A DNA stretch of 64,000 bases from Hoplostethus atlanticus (taxonomy: Eukaryota > Chordata > Actinopteri > Trachichthyiformes > Trachichthyidae). The DNA lies in contig JAXDDX010000049.1 in NCBI GenBank assembly GCA_034670405.1, positions 2,364,001-2,428,000 on the forward strand. Reading direction: 5' to 3'. This document shows positions 19,101-57,949 of the stretch, piece by piece. Position 1 is the stretch's first letter; each line of letters starts with the position of its first letter. The translations under genes were made by a program, and so were the position numbers. The notes beneath the pieces were generated by a model that saw nothing but the letters and a program-made list of their open reading frames with translations, made no database searches and was not told the origin of the DNA.

Positions 19101-22100
19101 AAAACGTACTTAAATAAGCCTTCTTTACTGTCAGGTAGCAAAATAAATACTATTTGAACATACAGAAGCATGTCTAAGGAACAGAGCAAATTTAGAGAAC
19201 TAAACATGAACTAAGAAACAGAGCCGGTATGTATACAACTTGGAAAGTTGGCAAAATTTGGTCTCAAACATGGACTTAATGATTTCATCTAAACTGCAGT
19301 GGCTAAGACGTTTGTATAAACATGCTCAGATCAACTTTGAGTCAAGAATAAGCAATACGGATCTAAGGGATTTATGACACGACAAAGCCGCAAATGATGA
19401 TGGACTCCAATGACGTCTAAATGAATTAACCCCTGCTGCTCAATAGCCAACGCAATATTTAGTGTCTCATAGCTTTGTTTTCTTTAGTAGTAAATCCAAA
19501 CCAACACTATCTTGATAAAACTTTCACATTACATTTTAGGCATTTAATTGATGTCTTGATCCAGGAGGCAACAGTAGAATCTAGTTCACAAGCAACCAAT
19601 AGGAAGGTGTGCATGGGTCCATAGTGCTCTAACAATATTCCCGATGATCAGCAACGATCATATAAGAAAGAAGTGCTGGGGGGGAAAAAGGACTAAGGAG
19701 AGCAGATATGATTCAGTGGGAAAAGGGTGATGCGCTTCCAGACGACAACGCAAGATGGGGAGTGACCCTGTGCTGACAAGAGTGGGAAGGTCATTCTACC
19801 ATTGGGGAGCGAGGAGAGAGAGGAACTCATACTGGTTGACCAGGTCGGCACAGTGGCTATTAGTGTCAGAATACAGAGTGGTGTGTAGGACTATGCCATG
19901 GCCTGCAGATCCCTTTGCAGCCTTGTATGCTAGCAAGTAACCATGGGAAGCCAGTGGAAAAGGAGAGTGACATGGGACAATTTTGAGAGGCTGAAGACGA
20001 GGCAGGTTGCACTGTTGTCATATTTCTTCATTAGAAACAAATGATTCCTCATTACTAATTTTTTTTTTAGACATGACTTGAAATCAGCTTAATAGCCAGT
20101 TAGTGAGAGAAATTCAGGAATTACACAGAAATATTCTGTTATGCACTTAGTGGCCACTCTTTTAAGTACAGCTCTCCATTTACACAAACAGCTCGCTCCT
20201 CCAGCCAGTGAGTCTCGTGTAAATATAGCATATATTGTGTAAAAGCACGCAGACAGGGTCGGGAGGTTCAGCTGCTGTCCGACTAAATGTTAGAAGGGGC
20301 AAGACGATTTGACATGATTCCCATGAAGTTGAACATGGTATGGTTGTTGGTGCCAGACATATTGGTTCCAGTATCTCAGAAAAGGCTGATCAGCTCAGAT
20401 TTTCACGCAGTTTCTAGAGTTTACGGTGAATGCTGGGCTAAACAAACCACATCCACTCAGCTGCAGACCTGAGGGCAACAAAGCCTCCGTGATGAGATCA
20501 GAGAAAAATGGCTCATTCAAGCTAACAGGCAGGCCACAAGAATGCAAATAACATCTTAGTGCAACAGTGATGTGCAGAGGGGCATCTCAGAACACACATT
20601 GTCGAACCTTGAAGTGGATGGGCTACAGCAGCAGGGGACCATGGTGGAGTCCACTTGTCAGCTACGAACAAGATGAAGCTTAAGTGAGCACATCGTCACC
20701 AAAATTGGATGATTGAAGAAGTAATATATGTTGCCTGGTCCAATGAATCCAGATTTCTATTTTGACATGCTGATGGCAGGGCGATAATTTGGTGTAAACA
20801 TGTTTACTTGGTATAGATTAGGCAATAGAGATGAAGCAATTAACTGATGTCACTATTAACTGCATTTGAAAACGCCATGGTTTTCTAACCAGAAAGACGC
20901 TACCTCTACGGTTCTGTGCTCCTTGAATGCAGCCTTGCCTTCACACAGATCTCATCAAGGTGTCTTCCATTCGTTGCAGGGCTGTGTGTGTATGAGTCGC
21001 GAGATGTTGTTTGGTGCGATCATTTATTTCATTCATCATTTGCAAGCTAAAAAATGTTTCATTTCATTAAATGAATGTTCAAATAACATTTACATCATTT
21101 ACTAATCCTTAGTAAACTGTTAAAAGAAAAAAAGTGAATTATTTGATAGTAAATTATTATTTTATTGTGAACTAATGTTAAATAACAATACAAATTCACC
21201 ATTTATTAAGGATGTTACTAAAATATTTATGCAAAAGTCTTAGACTTACTGCTAAAAGTAAATTTGGGTCATTTTCACAAATTTCTTGCATTTAAGAGCA
21301 AATTCTCACTCTGATTGACCTCATACACAATGACTCAGACCTACAGTTGGGGTCAAAAGTTTACATACACTTGTAAAGAACATGTATATCATGGCAGTCT
21401 TGAGTTTCCAATGATTTGTACAACTCTTATTTTTCTGTGATGGAATGATTGGAGCACATAGTTCTTTGTCACAAAAAACATTCATGAATTTTGGTTCTTT
21501 TATTAATTTATTATGGGTCTTCTGAAAATGTGACCAAACCTGCTGGGTCAAAAATATACATACAGCAATGCTAATATTTGGTCAAATGTCCCTTGGCCAT
21601 TTTCACCTCAATTAGGTGCTTTTGGTAGCCATCCACAAGCTTCTGGTTGAATCTTTGACCCTTCTTCTTGTGCAGTTCAACTAAATTTGTTGGCTTTCTG
21701 ACAGACTTGTTTCTTCAGCACTGTCCACATGTTCCCGATGGGGTTTAAGTCAGGACTTAGGGAAGACCTAAAACCTCTAATTCTAGCCGGATTTAGCCGT
21801 TCCTTTACCACTTTGGATGTGTGTTTGGGGTCATTGTCCTGTTGGAACACCCAACTGCGTCCAAGTCTCAACCTTCTGGCTGATGATTTTAGGTTTTCCT
21901 GAAGAATTTGGCGGTAATCCTTTCCCGTTGTAGCGTTTGTGGCTGAGTCTGAGTGTATCAAACGGCCCTAATTATACTGGCTCAGAGAAGTCACCAGCTG
22001 TAGTCAATCGTAATCACTCACAAGAAGTTAAGAGGCCACGCCACAAAGCAAATTTGATTGACACAACTTTCTACATCACCAAAACTGATAATTCAAGTTG

Positions 22101-25100
22101 CTGTATGTATATTTTTGACCCAGCAGATTTTGTCATATTTCCAGAAGGCCCATAATTAATTTATGAAAGAACCAAAATTCATGAATGTTTTTTTGTGACA
22201 AAGAACTATGTGCTCCAATCATTCCATCACAGAAAAATAAGAGTTGTACAAATCATTGGAAACTCAACCCTGCCATGATATAAATGTTCTTTACAAGTGT
22301 GTGTAAACTTTTGACCACAACTGTATATAAAACACATTTCTCACATAATTTGGAAATGGCCCACTGGTTCGGCTGTTTCTAACAGACCAAAAACAATATT
22401 CCAACATTCTCAACTCTGTGTTTCAGTTCTGCTGGAAACCCTGCAGCTTTGAATAAGAGAAATAGTATTTATCAAGGTATTTATTATCAAGTACTGATCT
22501 AAGGTAATTTTGTCTTTCAGGTTTTGTGTTTCAGTTTTCTTCCCCCTTTGGGACATTTGATGGATACAGGCTAGGGGCCAATGTCTTGACATGTACCTTT
22601 CCAAAGTTTGAGTGCTCTGTGCGTTTCCCGGTGCTCTTCTTGTGCTTGACAGGGGTGTCCCTGCTCTTTCCTGCACCCATGCTGGACTCCTGGGTCTCAC
22701 TGGAACCATGTTTGTGTACCGCTGAACCCTTAGCAGTGTATCGGGTTGTTGGGGGCTGCTGCAAGGGTACAGGATCCTTCTTGGCCTTCTTTCCTTTTCC
22801 TTTTCTCCTTTTCTCTGCTGCAATGGTAGAGCTTCTGTGGGAGACCAGACCAGATAGTGTGTAAATGACACACTTATGGACGCACAGAGAGAGAGAGGGA
22901 GAGAGGACTTGGACTTACCATTCCAACAGAAGACCAAATACAAAAGTAGCACACAAGTGAAGGTTGTATAGGTGTTGTACACTAAAGTTTTGTTCGTTAC
23001 ATCACTTAAGTCAGTTGTGTTATGATTCCATAGAGCAGTGGTCCTCAAATCGAGTACTGCTGGTTTTCCATCCTACCAGGTAGTTCATTGCATTCACCTG
23101 GACTAAACCAGTCCCCGATTAGACAACTAGAATGGAAACTAACTGGCAGAATAGAAAACCAGCAGTACTCTGGACCTAGAGGGCCAGATTTGAGGACCAC
23201 TGCCACAGAGTTTTTGCCAGGTGAATTACGCAGTGATAACACAAAGTAGTTAAAAAAGTGCATGATTTCGATTCAGGAACTCACTCCGCTTTGGTGGAAG
23301 CATGACTTAGTGGGGTAATCTTGGAGTCATTCTCCAGCTTTTGTTTCTTCCTGGTAAGTATTTTAGAATCTGCCTCAGCCTGAAAGACAATAAATCAAAT
23401 CATAACAGGGCTTTTACCATGTACATGCTAACTGGAAATTGCCTATAACGCAGACCCAAACTGATCTCACGTTTGGAAGTATACTCAAACCCACTGGTCT
23501 CTTCTTGCTGGTTTTGGTTCTTATGAGTTTTGTAAAAGCCTCATTCCCTCCTCCATCTTGCAATGTGGCCAGTCTCTTCCCACTGCTGTGTGTCACCTGG
23601 TGGACTTTGGAGACCTGGGGGACTCTCAAGAGCAGACTTAGATTAATCTTCACCAGCAGGGATCCAGGAGGTCTATGGGGGTCCCAGGAAGCCTTGGCTG
23701 AGTGTTGGTGGGCTGGTGGGCACAAACTTTTGTGAGGCTTCTTGAGGCCCTTCTGGGAGACAGTCTCTGTCTTGACTTTCTTGCAACTGATCTTGACTGG
23801 AGGGGTGGGGGGTAGCTGGTCAGGCTGAGCAGGGCTGGGGTTGAGGCAGGAGCAGGGGCTAGGAGTTCTCACACCACAAGTTGGACAATGACCGTACAGC
23901 ACCAGTGAGACTTTGGGTCCAGGCTCCGATTCAGCCTTCCGCTTGTCAAACAAGGTGTGTTTAGCAGCGTTCTTACTATCCATTTTAGTGCAACTTTTGT
24001 TACTGTTATTCTTGCTGTGTCCTGTTTTCGTCTTTACCTTGGGTCTATCTGTGAAGGAGGGGTCTTTGACTCGTGTGGCCAAAACCTCCACAGACTCTAC
24101 TTGGAGACCTGGTTGGGGGTCCTCTGGGCAAACGGCCTTGGCTGGCTTTGAGGAGTGCTTGTGGTCTGAAGTCTTTCTGGAATTGGTGTGGGTGGACTTC
24201 AAATTGGTGGAGGGGGATTTGTGACCACTCTCCTGGCTATTGTTGTTCTGAGGGCCTTCATTGCACTGCTGGGGTTTTGCATGATTGTCACTGACCTCGT
24301 TTTGGAGGGAAGAAAGGTGGGGCTTATACTCCCCAGTGGGGTTGGCCACCTCCCCCTTGGTGGCTTTGGAGCTTTGAGTGGGCCTCTCTGAGGCATGGGC
24401 ATCGCCTTGACTTTCTGTACTGGAGTTCTGTTGGCTGGACCTGATCCAGTTCCCCAACTGCCACTCACCATGGGTCACTGCAGGAACATCAGGCTATCAA
24501 AAAGAAGCACAATGGTTGAGATTTATAGACGGGAGGAAGAGTGAGAGGAAAAAGACATCAGAGCGAATGAGAGAATGTGTATGTTTTAATGAACATGTGT
24601 GTCTTCATCCATATACATGATTGTATGTAGCACATTCCATTACCTTGGTCTGAGTAGACCTACTCCCGAGGGGTTGAGGTGGTTCCTCTGTGCTGCTCTC
24701 ACTATCTGACTCTGAGGTACTCTCTGAGTCAGTGGAGCTGGCTGAGTCCACCCCACTGAAATGTGCTGCTTCAACCGTACTACAGTACAGACAGGATCAC
24801 AAATCAAATTGCAAATATGCATTAGTTCAATCAAGTAGGTAAGTAGAATCAGGTGGGTAAAAAATTGGATATGAAGTTAACCAGTTAAAGGTCAGATCTT
24901 TGGGGAGACGTTTGTGTGGCACTTCCATAAATAAAAGGTGAGCAACCTGGTCAGTTTGGTGTTACCCATGCAGGTGAAAAAAAATGGCCCTTCTAAGGGA
25001 CAAGACACTTACGATGAAGAGCTCTGCTGGCTGATATTGGATGGAGGTGTGGGGGAGGAGCCGTGTTCTGGAAAAGAAACAGAGCAGAGAAAACAAACAT

Positions 25101-50595: not shown

Positions 50596-51423
50596 CTACC
50601 CCGCTCCTTCTTGCTTGGACTGATTTGGACTTCTCTGCCAAAAGGTGACTAGGAAAGGTGGACATCTAAGTACCCTGTGCCCCAGGACGTCTTGCTGGGT
50701 GGCAATCTGTACGCAGAATGATGTCCCCGTCTGCTCCGTGTTGAAGTGGTGCGTGGCTTCGTAGCGGAGGCCACAGCCATTGGCAAGTGTGGTGGGGCTA
50801 TAGTGTACGCTCAGTGTGCCAGCAGTGGGGGCAGTTGATTTCAGTTCCAGCTCTTGTCCTACCACAGACATATCCACAGGCAACACTACAAAGGCATGCT
50901 GGAAGCTCTCTCCGATGGTGCACTGTAGATCCATAGACCAACAGTATACTCCAGGCTCTCCTGAGGAGAATAGCCAGTATATGATACACATCACAGATAC
51001 AGATAAGTCTATCTCATATATTTTAACATAAGGTAGTGATGCAATAACGTCCCTTGCAGAATAAAACACCTAATACAACTGATAATGCTTGCTTGAATGA
51101 CAAATGTAGACATTCACTTTAGAAATCAGCCAGCTTGTGAGATTTTTACTGCACAACACAAACGCTCCACTGAGATAATGTCATTTAGTGGCTCTCTTAC
51201 CTTCTGTGGAATCTTTGAGGCGTATATTACAATCATCCTGAAGTTTCAGTTTTTTGATGAAGGTCAGTCTAGTGCAATTCATTAGACAGTCAGTCGGCCG
51301 TGTCAGTTTGCTGGGGATCTCTCTCAGCAGAATCTCCTTCTCTGTGCACTCAATTGCTCCCACAGCTAGTAGAAGGGAGGACAGTATACCACAAGACGCC
51401 CAAACAGTGAAAGATGTTGCCAT
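50596..51423 (-). CDS. Predicted secreted Cys-rich protein, family not recognised
   Basis: Two exons, 51423-51201 and 50960-50596, join in phase at an Asp-Ser-Thr-Glu-Gly-Glu-Pro junction (donor GTAAGAG, acceptor tctcctcag) and encode 195 residues. Residues 1-23 are a likely signal peptide (MATSFTVWASCGILSSLLLA, then VGA). The mature part begins ECTEKEIL and has about ten cysteines, an NCT glycosylation sequon and a region rich in beta-branched residues (YCWSMDLQC, FVVLPVDMSV, GCGLRYE, SFCVQI). No transmembrane helix is seen. It lies between gsdf and aff1 on the same strand. The cysteine content suggests an extracellular disulphide-bonded domain, but I cannot name a family. A donor-like GTACTT inside exon 2 leaves open further exons and a different C-terminus. 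Confidence 0.6.
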
Positions 51424-53316
51424 TCTGTCCAGTATCAATTCAACATCAAAGTAGGGGTAATGTTGAGTTGAATATTGCCTCTGGTCTTGCTGTCTTCTTG
51501 TGCTGTTGTTTTGTGTTCAGTCAAGGACCGATACCTCATGAGTTATTATGCTTCCACAGCAGTCAGGCATGTATGAATGTTTTGAGTAAAAATGCATGCA
51601 GAGTGGCTGAAAATGTTGAAGACTTCTTTAGTAAGTGCGCAACAGGCTGTGATGCTCTTCCAACGTGCTGTGCCAATGTTCCTCCCTCTGCTCCCCCCCC
51701 CCCCCCCCAACCTTAGCTGTAACTATCTGGCAGGCATGAAATATTGTAAGGTTGGCATAAAGGACAGCATGCAGGACAGCTTTGACACCTTGTCATATAC
51801 AAAGGTACCATATATACTGTATGAGAAAAAAGATGTACACATTTGATGAGAAAATATTGATTTAAATCACCTTTTATTGAAGGAATGTGAGGAAGAAATC
51901 ATGCAATCAATACAAATGATCAAAATGGCATAGTGTTATAACCACAACAAAACCTTCTGCATTTAATCTAAAAGTATGTAATGACATGGTATAATATTTT
52001 ACATATCACTGTGATAAATAGTACTGTGAAAAATATTGAATGAAAGAGTGAATGGTGAGGTAAATTTGTGTAAATTAGGTAAATGAGTGTGTGTGTGCAT
52101 ATAATAAAAGTCTGGTTTAGTGTTATCATCCAAAAAATAAAACTCACAACTGAGAACTGACAGATATACTGGTCAAACAATGGATGTAGAAGTATATGAG
52201 AATAAAACAAGAATTCTACTGGTACAAATGTAATACAAACATTCACATTTAATTATTATTTGTTTTCTCTCTGATCAGTGTATAACATAACAGCATGTCT
52301 TCACTTTTGACCAAAATTGAAGTTACTGCCCGTTGCCTTTGCAGGGCACCATTGTCCCCTTTGTCTACCAGCAGAAACATGAAAATGGAGCATGGCCAAT
52401 GGAAGCTTGTGGAAAAGCACAGCACAGATGTTGCTCTCAGTCAGAGAGTGAGAGCAATAAGCCCTAGGAGAACTGAAACTACGTTTTGGGAGAAGAGAGT
52501 TTTGCTGATGAACATAATCTACTTTTATTAATTTCACTGTATAAAAAAATATTTTGACTTCACATTAACAAATAATCTAGATGAGAAGACATATTTTGTT
52601 TGACTGCAGTTGCTCATTACAATTAGATTAACTTTATTTTTTTCGATAGACGATGTAATGCTGTTATACAATGCAGTTGTCTGGAATAGCTGTGTTACAC
52701 AGGTCTACACAAGTTACACAACTATCCTGGGAGAGGATGTGGCTTTGAACAGCCACACAGTGTTCACATTTTTGCAGGGAACACTCAGTAGCGATTAGTA
52801 GCTGCTTTCCGGCCTTGCCATTTGATAACCATGCAGGGTTGTGAAATATAGCTGTCTTAAAAATATCTCTGTGCACACATGAGATTTATTTAAAGCTAAA
52901 CTGACAACAATTGTGTCAATGGGTTTTAACCAAAATATTCTTAGTTCTTAGCACTGGAGAAATACTTGCCTACATAAACTGATTTTCAAAGGATTGCAGA
53001 ATTTTCAGGCAATGAAATAACAGCATTATTGCAAGCAAGCTAAGAGAGTCAGTGTCTCATGACAGGTGAAGGTGGAGGAAGGAAGGAAGTGGGGACATTG
53101 GTACAATGGGCTTTGAGAGCAATGAGGTGTGGTTGTGTTGTAAACTCACTCAATCTCATCAATTCTACCACTAAAACAATGCTTGATTAGTTGTAAGGTA
53201 CGCTGGTTAGACAAATCTGCCAAATTCTGTGTAACATGGTATACTACTATAAAAGGCTTGTTCATGTGTTCCAGGTGGCTGATCGAACTCACATGTACAG
53301 GACTATAAAACAAGCT
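51424..53316. other. Gap between secreted-protein gene and gsdf
   Basis: Holds a poly-C run at 51692-51708 and AT-rich sequence. It must contain the promoter of the downstream - strand gene and the gsdf 3' UTR, but no specific signal was recognised. Confidence 0.5.
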
Positions 53317-55486
53317 TTACTCTTCGTTCGGCAGCCGGACGCAGCCACATTTACGGGTCAGCTGCATGGAGGAAATGACGACGGTACTTTGTTCATCCAT
53401 GTACACGATGGGCACCATTTCCTGGGAGGTGGGCTGACAGCACGGCATCTGGATCAATAACAAAGGGAGAGGGAGTCAGGGGTAGTTGGGTGGGTGGGGG
53501 CGGGGTTAGCTGAACAATGTTTGATGTTTATTAGCAACAGAGTGGTGTTGATTTCTTCGGCTATTGAATTTAAACTGTTTCAAGTACATTAGTTTAATCA
53601 ACAAACAATATAACATCTTGTCAATAATATTGTGTATAAACCTGTTGCATTACATTCACTGTAGTGTACTTAGGATTTTTTGTTGAGTGTAATTTGTTTA
53701 TTACCCTGTGATCATTGTGATTAGTCTGAGGTTGATTGGATGTTCTTATGGTCAACTCTGCATGTTGTTGCTTCCTGAGAAACTAGGAGTTAAAACTATT
53801 AACTATTTCCAAAAATTGATCTCTCACAGAGCCAGGAGGACTTGGAAATGTATATGAAAACTGTTATGCCTGTCAAGACTGATAAAAATCCATCTGTCAT
53901 AGATTCTCCGTGATCTAGGAGAAATGATCAGCACTATTAGATCATTTGTGCTGCCAAGTTCCACAATTTTCAAATCTCTCTCTAAGAATTATACCTGTGT
54001 GGGGGTTTCCTGGACATTGGGAGGGTATGATGGACAGCGCAAAGTGTTCATTTCCATTAGAGGGTTGCAGGATGTACACTGGACAAGGGTGAGGCTCTCA
54101 GGATGGATCACCCAGCTGTCCCAGCCCAGATCTGCCAAATACAGTAAGGGATATAGCATGGGTTAGTATGCCTTTTCATAGAAAAGAACACACACACACA
54201 CACACACATATATAAAAATATACACATACACATGTACCTTTCAGGAAGATCTCAGAGGCCATCTGACAACACTTCAGGCCTGTAGTGTTTACATCAGGTG
54301 TCACAGAGAGTGCAGGAACTGGGTGGACATTGAACAAAACCACTCAGCACAGTAAAAGAAAATTGGCTATTTGAAGTTTAGCAAAATTGCAATATTGATA
54401 TTTGTAATTTGATTTCATTTAAAATAGCTAATGAGGCTTTTTCTGCACTGGGTCTCCCCTACCTGCACTGTCATTTGCACTGAAGGTGGTTTTCCATTGC
54501 TCTCTGATACCGGTCAGCCCACCAACAGGTAGCCGTGGCTCAGTCTGCAAGTTGAGTGCCCCAAGGAGACCTTTTCTGATGGACTGCAATGACTCACCCT
54601 GGCACCTGCAGATAGGCATCACTCACATTATTAAAATACACAATATTAACAAATTATTTAAATTAAAGAAACATTTATTTTGGAAACAATAGAAATACTG
54701 AACATTATAGATAAATAAGTGATGTTGAATTTGTTGTATTACATTCAGTTCAATGTAAGCATATTCCATATACAAATCCATACAAGAGTTTTGCAGCAAA
54801 ATTTATTTTCTTGTTGTTTGTTGCATACAAGGAAATGTATCAATAATTACTGCTGTGCACCAGTTCTCTCACCAATGAACTGAAGCAGTTTTACAGACCC
54901 GTAGCTGTTTGCCCAAGCCGAGTCAGAGATCCTGTCTTAAGGAGTGACTGATTACGCTGCTAATGCTTGAGTAGAACAGTGTGTTACAGCCCTGGCAATC
55001 ACTCTTAGAATACCACAGGTCTCCATTACCCTGTAAGCACAGCCAAACTCTAATATTTCCCCCCCTCCCATCTGAAAAGGCTGCAACAAGCATGCATCAA
55101 CATAGACTTTATGATATGCTATGTGACACCATAAAATGTCTTCAGCTCTAAGGCTATTTTAAAACATAATGAGCTCTGCAACCCAACATGATATTTCACA
55201 GTTCTTTGGACGAGATTGGACTTCCCTATAAACAAAGAAAGGTCACTATAAACAAAAGAGAGAACTTGTATAGGCTCACTGTATGATAAGTCCAAAGAAG
55301 TGGAATCTTCTTCATGCCCATAGAGGCTTATGCGTGGTGCACAAACAAGTTTGGTACTCACCTGTTGTGCCTGGTGACAGGAGAGTTAGCAGATGTTGCA
55401 GGTTCTTTCTCGGAGGGATGCAGGACGAATGCCATCACGAGTGAAGAGCCCAGAAGGACCATCATGACAAAGAATGCAATGGACAT
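53317..55486 (-). CDS. gsdf: Gonadal soma derived factor (TGF-beta superfamily ligand)
   Basis: Five exons join in phase: 55486-55362, 54605-54463, 54318-54238, 54131-53995, 53448-53317. They encode 205 residues. MSIAFFVMMVLLGSSLVMA is a signal peptide. A short pro-like region follows, with RHNR at 39-42 and CQGESLQSIRKGLLGALNLQ. The TGF-beta domain runs from about residue 105: KCCQMASEIFLKDLGWDSW, then VQCTSC at 133-138, CC at 165-166 and a final KCGC at 195-198. Sequons N100-T-T and N-D-S near 86 suggest glycosylation. GSDF is secreted by somatic cells around germ cells in fish gonads and drives testis differentiation in several species; derived copies act as male sex determiners in some fishes. 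Length, exon count and motifs fit the family. An extra copy of exon 4 lies upstream. Confidence 0.95.
54188..54208 (+). repeat. (AC)n microsatellite in gsdf intron 3
   Basis: About ten AC units between gsdf exons 3 and 4, followed by AT-rich sequence. A possible length polymorphism near the exon 3 donor. Confidence 0.9.
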
Positions 55487-56233
55487 GTTAGATGTGCAGG
55501 CCAGGCAAGTCAGACGCGTGATGGGATGAAGGCTGAGGTTGGTTCTCTTGGTCTGGCTGGAGGAGGAGACAGGAGTGACCAGACAGGGATGCTGTAGTAG
55601 CTATTGTTTGTCAGGGCCTGGGAACCTGGCTTTTTATCTTTCTTTACCCCAGCTTGGCCTTGAGATACTTAACATTGTTGTCGTGTCCCCTGTTCTGTGT
55701 GAAAGAGTAAGAGGAGGATGATCCAACAGAGAAAGAGAGAGACAGACACAAGATAAACAGATAGGAGTGGAGGTTTGGAGGGAGGCATAAAGACAGATAA
55801 AATGACAGATTTTTGTGACCATATCATAGTGTAGCCTGCAAAACTTATATTTTTAGTGTTGATTATATAACACAGAAGTTTGGTGAAAACCCCAAATCCC
55901 AGACAAACTGAACAAGTGAATCACAGCAAGCAAAACGTGTTTGCTTGCAATGAACTATACGGCACCTACGTATAGTTGTGCACAAAATCTGAATAACCTT
56001 TTATAGAATTAATAGCATATATATATATGTTTATATATATGATATACCATACCCTACATTCAGACAGGGCACCATCCATCAAAGCATCTAAAAGAGCATC
56101 TAGTGAAGAGATTCTTTGATTCATGACTTATTATTGAGAGATAAAGCATGGGGAGAAGTATCTATTCTATAGGATCTATTCCTGTAAGTTGGCAGTGATG
56201 GACCATGAACACTAGAAGACACAGGCTGTCCAG
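55487..56233 (-). promoter_or_regulatory. gsdf: gsdf 5' flank (inferred promoter region)
   Basis: Sequence between the gsdf start codon and the duplicated exon 4 fragment. It contains GA/CT-rich tracts (about 55.70-55.76 kb) and a TA-repeat at about 56.01-56.04 kb. No exact TATA box or start site assigned. Confidence 0.35.
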
Positions 56234-56459
56234 GATCTAGGAGAAATGATCAGCACTATTAGATCATTTGTGCTGCCAAGTTCCACAATTTTCAAAACTC
56301 TCTCTAAGAATTATACCTGTGTGGGGGTTTCCTGGACATTAGGAGGGTATGATGGACAGCGCAAAGTGTTCATTTCCATTAGAGGGTTGCAGGATGTACA
56401 CTGGACAAGGGTGAGGCTCTCAGGATGGATCACCCAGTTGTCCCAGCCCAGATCTGCCA
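56234..56459 (-). pseudogene. gsdf: Partial duplicate of gsdf exon 4 with flanking intron
   Basis: The 226 bp match 53912-54137 without gaps at a constant offset of 2322 bp and with three mismatches by eye. The exon-equivalent part is 56317-56453. One exonic difference is silent; the other changes DLGWDSW to DLGWDNW. The reading frame, the acceptor AG and the downstream GTATAA donor are intact, but only six bases of the upstream intron were copied, so the polypyrimidine tract is replaced. It sits 5' of gsdf, about 0.75-1 kb beyond its start codon. No other gsdf exons were found nearby, so it is a fragment, not a second gene. Confidence 0.9.
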
Positions 56460-57949
56460 CAGGATGTCCAGTCAGTTCCTGCTGAAAGGTAGTTATCAGC
56501 TCCCATTACAACTCCCAATTTTTGGCCTGACATGAAAGACACCAATCTCTACTGATAAACATAAAAACAATATTATTGCTCTACACTGGTCATTCAAGGA
56601 CAGAGGATGTGGAGGGGAGAAAGGTAACACCAAGCAATAAAAACCAGTGCTGCAGGTGATGTTAATATCTGAAAGCCCAGACAAACAGCTTGGCAGTGCT
56701 GACAGTACTGTAAGCCAGCCAAAACAAGCATGGAATGATTACTTCAAGACTTTCCCATGTAGCCTCAAATGAACCCTCTCTGTTTATCTGCTCCAATGGA
56801 TGGTGAGTACATATCAAACCATATTTCATTAACAGTGGAGCAGGAATGCTTGACACAAGCTGATACTAAACCTACCTTCTTTTGCCCGGCACAATCAAAT
56901 GATGTGATATGTTTCACAGAGCATCTAATACAAGATGACAAGGTGATTTTGACCTGAAGATCAGGTCCATTATTATGACGATACCACAGGTCAGGTGAAT
57001 TTCACTTCCAATGAATATCTGTTGGAAAACAGTAATGCTGCAGACATCGAGCAAATAAAATCCAAATAATCGGAATAAGAGGAGTCTCCTGATAATTACT
57101 TGCTCAAAGTCGCAATGCCCTATCCCTTTTCTATCTCTATCAGCCATAATAACACAAATATGTGAAACGGTCTTACATCAGAAATTAAACAGGTCTTAAC
57201 AACGCTGTCTCAAGCAGGTCTCAACTTCTCAGGGTTGGCACACTTCCACAAATGGTAACATAACTTAGGTGGAGAGAATGTTGCCTAACGTCTGGTGAAA
57301 CAAGAATCTTTATAAAAATACACACACACACACACATAGACATATGGAAAGGTCATTCTTGGATAATGCAGCTTGAAATCTATCTCATAACCAAGAATAA
57401 ATGACTGAAGTCCTTGAGTGTCAGATGTCTCCCACCTCTTCCCACTTGCAGTAATATTGGGAGTCACACCACTGGCAGCTGCTCCTGGCAATTATCACAA
57501 GGAATCACAAAGACCTTTTATGCCCAGATGGAGGACTGTGGAGGATGCCAATGCAGGTGTTCCACAAACAGGCAACACAGAGGACATTCTTGATATGTGT
57601 TTCAACATACAAATTGTTAAAAAAAAAAGTTCTTCAGTGTTGGATTGTAACAAGGATCCCGAGATGCAAAAAAAACCCCATTTTTTGCAGGAAATTAAAC
57701 TAAAGTATTTTCCTGCTTGGCTACAGTAGAGTTTATTATTTGTCTGACCCATGACATTATGTTCATATTTACGAGTCATGGTCAAAATACACATCTAATT
57801 TGATGGACAGAACAATTAATACCATCAACCTTTGGAAGTGTGTGAAAGAAATTTGATATTTCTTGAAGCCTGAGGAATGTTTGGAAGTATAAAAAACCTT
57901 GCAGAGAAATCATAGAAATCTGAATTGTTGAGGATACAACTAAACAAGA

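Follow-up and report, generated by a model that had tools for sequence, protein, structure and literature searches.

The gsdf gene of Hoplostethus atlanticus lies on the minus strand of the 64,000-nucleotide stretch analysed here (assembly GCA_034670405.1, contig JAXDDX010000049.1, positions 2,364,001 to 2,428,000; hereafter the window). Its five exons, assembled with GT/AG introns, encode an open 205-amino-acid protein with a Pfam TGF_beta domain (43.5 bits against a cut-off of 27), and the gene is intact. Upstream of the first coding exon lies a second copy of exon 4. As gsdf is read from the minus strand, this copy, at 56234-56459, is 5′ of the start codon, at 748-973 bp from the ATG (55486). 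The coordinates of the features are collected in Table 1.

A preliminary description of this DNA had reported that the 5′ flank of gsdf contains a recently duplicated exon 4, as a 226-bp block about 98.7% identical to the native exon and in the same orientation. Alignment of the block to its donor in the native gene gave 223 identities in 226 positions, without gaps and in the same orientation (expectation value, E, 2.5e-108). Exon mapping bore out that the whole exon had been copied together with 83 bp of the following intron; the part contributed by the preceding intron is 6 bp, TGGCAG. The copied exon keeps its open frame and its AG and GT splice dinucleotides, also as described. One of the three differences between donor and copy is intronic (T at 53975, A at 56297), one is synonymous in a proline codon (G at 54019, A at 56341), and the third (C at 54116, T at 56438) is the single Ser to Asn change that had been noted, read on the minus strand. 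A literature text search did not find a published Gsdf sequence with which to polarise the Ser/Asn difference. Three differences, one synonymous, one non-synonymous and one intronic, are too few to show constraint. Similarity begins and ends abruptly on both sides of the copy. Its flanks showed no resemblance to other gsdf sequence in alignments within the window, and 500-bp flanks searched within the surrounding 264 kb matched only themselves.

The block was compared with the whole assembly (632,777,144 bases in 1,161 contigs), using a search that skips very common words. It was found at two places, the donor and the copy. A transposon control from the same window, one arm (21342-21568) of an inverted repeat, gave at least 41 genome matches, its own two arms included. 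The block is therefore not a dispersed repeat, and a dispersed transposon was rejected as its source. No transposon end was evident at either side of the copy, and a repeat search of the window placed the block in a single family, D2. When the flanks of the insertion site were joined and searched for in the assembly, they matched at full length only here, with three short matches on contigs C19 and C59. The assembly thus gave no sign of an alternative haplotype.

The insert is directly abutted by an imperfect 14-bp direct repeat (13/14 identical) resembling a target-site duplication. This repeat is an addition to the preliminary description, which did not mention it. The last 2 bp of the copy (CA) are common to the end of the insert and the right flanking repeat; as a signature of end joining, this microhomology at the right junction is weak alone. 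The net length gained by the insertion is 238 bp. Random junctions scored as well as the flanking repeat in 1 of 20,000 cases in the window and in 5 of 200,000 in the 264 kb around it. The score, which tolerated a single mismatch and shifts of up to 3 bases, was defined after the repeat had been seen, and these figures are therefore guides rather than formal probabilities. Alignment, genome search and flanking repeat all support the view that exon 4 was recently copied into the 5′ flank.

A fragment of gsdf pre-mRNA could in principle have been inserted by retrotransposition of the long interspersed nuclear element (LINE) type, with a target-site duplication. The 14 bp are within the usual size range of LINE target duplications and, since the block contains intron sequence, pre-mRNA could have served as template. 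Among human templated insertions (TSI/TSIP; Onozawa and Aplan, PMC5110952), those of class 1 are described as having a target duplication, a poly(A) tract that follows a polyadenylation signal, and a LINE target, and those of class 2 as having none of these. The gsdf copy has the repeat only, which at 14 bp (13/14) is long enough for the class 1 duplication of at least 5 bp. However, neither end of the copy has a poly(A) or poly(T) run, and the repeat boundaries read CACAGG...GTCCAG, with no TTTT/A-type target. We regard a LINE-type origin as unlikely.

The presence of a copy with a retained donor and a flanking repeat, and with no evident poly(A) or transposon end, fits a break-repair patch and not a tandem duplication. 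It is likely that the block is a templated ('patch') insertion from the repair of a staggered double-strand break, most likely with little or no functional effect. Such a break would have arisen approximately 0.75 kb upstream of the gsdf start codon. One broken end, sharing the CA microhomology, would then have used the exon 4 and intron 4 located 2.3 kb away as template, copying about 224 bp either from its own molecule or from a sister, a homologue or a nascent transcript. The copied patch would have been joined to the other broken end, and fill-in of 14-nucleotide overhangs would leave the flanking direct repeat. The donor (53912-54137) is still in place beside its copy. An insert of 224-226 bp fits the experimental templated insertions, reported as 73-414 bp with a median of 191 (PMC5110952), and experiments have documented that breaks with 3′ overhangs can give rise to short duplications (PMC8355091). 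The expected outcome would be a decaying exon-4 relic, with little or no functional effect, in a poorly conserved promoter spacer. The gsdf copy probably works like, and is, an ordinary duplicative repair insertion.

Several observations weigh against break repair as the source. The flanking repeat is a single case with one mismatch, and the pair is absent from the output of a general repeat finder run with 9-base seeds. The human insertions attributed to break repair, those of class 2, are described as lacking target-site duplications (PMC5110952), and the gsdf insertion combines the repeat of class 1 with the absence of poly(A) of class 2. The copying may have gone through an RNA intermediate. 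With regard to functional effect, the insertion moves the core promoter 238 bp further from a distal block that both of the relics described below have kept.

Copy and donor diverge at 3 of 226 positions (1.3%; 95% interval 0.27-3.8%), or at 4 of 238 if the flanking repeat is included. At neutral rates of 0.3-1 x 10^-8 per site per year, the insertion would be, very roughly and with wide error, about 0.7-2.2 million years old. It may be fixed or polymorphic, and its age could have been reset by gene conversion. Divergence of this order makes an assembly error unlikely. The analysis is based on one assembly, in which the copy might be an artefact or reflect a collapsed haplotype. A false duplication, however, predicts neither the three differences between donor and copy nor the non-donor flanks nor the flanking repeat, and searching the assembly revealed no second haplotype at this site. 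An artefact is extremely unlikely.

Two relics of the gsdf 5′ region were found on other contigs. The first (C59:2453914-2454655) matches window positions 55636-55807 and 56755-56835, and comprises the core promoter block in two pieces (84% and 89% identical) and the distal block (79%), in the same order as at gsdf. Its distal block adjoins a stretch that we read as resembling a tRNA-derived short interspersed nuclear element (SINE). No gsdf exon was found in the 10 kb around it (best E 2.9), and it may be what is left of a lost gsdf paralogue. In the second relic (C19:837841-838249), which matches 55159-55488 and 56755-56835, exon 1 and part of intron 1 (71%) are joined almost directly to the distal block (84%), without the intervening promoter; the native splice donor region is lost and the frame reaches a stop. 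The two relics share 156 bp at 94% identity and are thus related. The distal block (56755-56835) occurs at three places in the genome, namely gsdf and the two relics. It lies a little further from the ATG (about 1.27 kb) than the insertion does, and is a candidate conserved regulatory element.

The existence of such relics, and the adjacent gsdf duplicates of orange clownfish and pinecone soldierfish (PMC12989411), would accord with the copy being the remnant of a larger tandem gsdf duplication that has mostly been lost since. At 98.7% identity, however, the flanks of such a remnant should still match gsdf introns, and no match was seen. A tandem origin does not predict the 14-bp flanking repeat, and the relics elsewhere are far more diverged (71-89%) and lack exon 4. 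Tandem gene duplication was rejected as strongly disfavoured because the flanks of the copy are unlike gsdf, and we consider it very improbable.

The preliminary description had also suggested that the insertion could alter gsdf transcription, since regulatory changes of this gene create sex determiners in some fishes. The core promoter motifs of gsdf, predicted from sequence, follow the order of a conserved teleost block (SOX/Dmrt1, Nr5a1, GATA) reported in 7 of 10 species (PMC12989411). They are intact, 186-148 bp from the ATG, and the insert begins 556 bp beyond them. Between the core and distal blocks there was no match to the C59 relic at E up to 1e-4, which places the insertion point in an unconserved spacer. 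The insert was scanned with ten consensus patterns, and the scan was not used as evidence. Two nested Wt1 forms matched, both at one string, which the donor carries at 53997; across the 64-kb window GNGTGGGNGT matches five times, counting those in donor and copy. A third Wt1 form, two Dmrt1 patterns, and the Nr5a1, SOX, GATA, oestrogen response element half-site and FOXL2 patterns had no match in the insert. With ten patterns tried, the single Wt1-like match is weak.

These results bear on whether the insertion is a regulatory allele that alters early gonadal gsdf expression through added sites or spacing, with a role in sex determination. By analogy, insertions upstream of gsdf are sex-linked in sablefish (PMC3708741, PMC10320756) and Atlantic halibut (PMC8824383). 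The insert of H. atlanticus has a Wt1-like string and sits between the core promoter and the distal block kept in two relics. On the other side, the core motifs are intact, eight of the ten patterns are without a match in the insert, and the divergence of 1.3% (0.27-3.8%) shows no hint of selection. A regulatory allele of this kind would be very unlikely. The regulatory suggestion stands as a possibility, and found no support in the intact core motifs, their distance of 556 bp or the unconserved spacer.

The copy appears poorly placed as an exon, lying as it does upstream of the first coding exon. Splicing to exon 2 would reach a stop after three codons, and a coding chimera through exon 2 was rejected on this ground; the frame thus argues against a useful protein from chimeric transcripts, as proposed earlier, that join the copy to exon 2. 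Splicing to exon 5 would be in frame, but without exons 1-3. Only TGGCAG of the native acceptor came with the copy, and what precedes it is non-native sequence. The tract of 19 nucleotides upstream of the acceptor AG has 10 pyrimidines in the copy and 13 at native exon 4. However, the acceptor of exon 2 also has 10 of 19, so the reduced tract of the copy is alone a weak argument. A second AG upstream of the copy, at 56482, is no better (9/19). Because the copy is oriented like gsdf, the opposite strand would have to be transcribed for any antisense effect.

The promoter and exons 1-3 lie between two exon-4 copies that form a 226-bp direct repeat. If these copies recombined, 2,322 bp would be deleted or duplicated, yielding null or extra-promoter gsdf alleles; uninterrupted identity between the copies is at most 96 bp, and such recombination may therefore be rare. 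Co-option of the copy as a cis-regulatory or sex-linked allele, through the Wt1-like site or a recurrent 2,322-bp deletion or duplication, seems most improbable. If true, a gsdf sex determiner would have evolved without the help of a transposon. The Wt1-like string and the 2.3-kb direct-repeat geometry would be the only functional leads.

Table 1. Positions in the window of gsdf, its exon-4 copy and associated sequence features
Feature	Position	Strand	Basis or remark
Inserted copy (exon 4, 83 bp of intron 4, 6 bp of intron 3)	56234..56459	-	Alignment to donor
Donor block in native gsdf	53912..54137	-	Alignment to copy
Exon-4 copy proper, 137 bp, open frame, AG/GT present	56317..56453	-	Exon mapping
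Left copy of 14-bp target-site-duplication-like repeat, CACAGGCTGTCCAG	56220..56233	.	Junction inspection
Right copy of 14-bp repeat, CACAGGATGTCCAG	56458..56471	.	13/14 identical to left copy
gsdf exon 1, coding part	55362..55486	-	ATG at 55486; signal-peptide-like start judged by eye
gsdf exon 2	54463..54605	-	Exon assembly
gsdf exon 3	54238..54318	-	Exon assembly
gsdf exon 4, native, 137 bp	53995..54131	-	Exon assembly
gsdf exon 5 with stop	53317..53448	-	Exon assembly
gsdf core promoter motifs	55634..55678	-	Predicted from sequence; order matches conserved teleost block
GATA motif	55634-55639	-	Motif match
Nr5a1 motif, TCAAGGCCA	55655-55663	-	Motif match
SOX/Dmrt1 motif, ACAATGT	55672-55678	-	Motif match
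Wt1-like string in insert, GTGTGGGGGT	56319..56328	+	In silico, weak; same string in donor at 53997

The name gsdf rests on the call made in the preliminary description, the TGF_beta domain and the neighbouring gene at 62.4-63.9 kb. This neighbour has a metallophosphatase domain and an IQ motif slightly below its cut-off, and its phosphatase segment was closest to rdgC in the PDB (the top two among 92 sequences), as a PPEF gene should be. According to Rondeau et al. (PMC3708741), gsdf is flanked by PPEF2 and AFF1. A search of the assembly for other gsdf genes gave 33 matches at E up to 1, among which there was no second complete gsdf. Six of the matches were the five native exons and the copy, and one was the exon-1 relic; the remaining 26 (21-34% identity, located mainly in the C-terminal half) were interpreted as other TGF-beta genes. 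Downstream of gsdf, open frames on the minus strand at 50596-51516 resemble, by eye, a small secreted protein gene; they had no Pfam match at E up to 1.

The 264 kb around the site contain nine self-matches of at least 60 bp and at least 92% identity, one of which is the gsdf pair. The other eight belong to a dispersed family (three), transposon inverted repeats (one), a tandem array (three) and an unexplained inverted pair (one). This inverted pair, of 207 bp, 98% identical and 57.7 kb apart, lies outside the window at C49:2433607-2433813 and 2491525-2491731. No target duplication was evident by eye at the pair, which may be a young transposon or a further recent insertion of the duplicative kind. 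Within the window, inverted 228-bp repeats with TA at their ends are located at 21342-21568 and 22098-22325; they resemble the termini of a short Tc1-like transposon. A tandem array at C49:2447988-2450448, outside the window, has slightly more than three copies, 97-99% alike, of a unit of approximately 716 bp.

'Patch-mediated' insertions were reportedly the subject of a 2014 study by Vaughn and Bennetzen, going by its title as cited. The gsdf copy is like the TSI/TSIP insertions in its short copied insert, retained donor and junction microhomology, but its donor is local (2.3 kb), unlike the distant donors described for those insertions (PMC5110952). Its donor being local, and its 14-bp repeat lacking an accompanying poly(A), it differs in detail from both human classes. 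The duplications made by fill-in of staggered breaks (PMC8355091) are alike in leaving a short direct target duplication at the repaired break; unlike these plain duplications, the gsdf copy has a 224-bp templated filler between the target repeats.

Among fishes, the X- and Y-specific gsdf insertions of sablefish (PMC3708741, PMC10320756) share the 5′-flank position. These are described as transposon-like, with 12-16-bp inverted repeats, and they followed sex in 53 fish, whereas the H. atlanticus insert is the gene's own exon. Citing Herpin et al. 2021, PMC10320756 credits the sablefish insertion with Dmrt1 and Wt1(-KTS) sites. The Y-specific insertion of Atlantic halibut also lies upstream of gsdf; it is a Gypsy long terminal repeat (LTR) element, whose relatives are described with 4-6-bp target duplications (PMC8824383). 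The intragenic duplication of dmrt1 in Senegalese sole (PMC7605655) is likewise a partial self-duplication of a sex-pathway gene, with no sex-related isoform according to that source. Unlike the gsdf copy, it exceeds 10 kb, includes several exons and is attributed to a SINE. In the literature surveyed, mostly titles and abstract openings, no exon-4 copy upstream of gsdf was named.

In practical terms, polymerase chain reaction primers, probes and CRISPR guides for exon 4 in H. atlanticus can match two sites 2.3 kb apart, and cutting at both could remove the promoter and exons 1-3. The copy is a clean apparent break-repair patch in the flank of a gene whose upstream insertions became sex determiners in other fishes, and it suggests that upstream insertions need not derive from transposons. 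If it is polymorphic or sex-linked, it would provide a ready-made test of whether a neutral-looking insertion can change gsdf.
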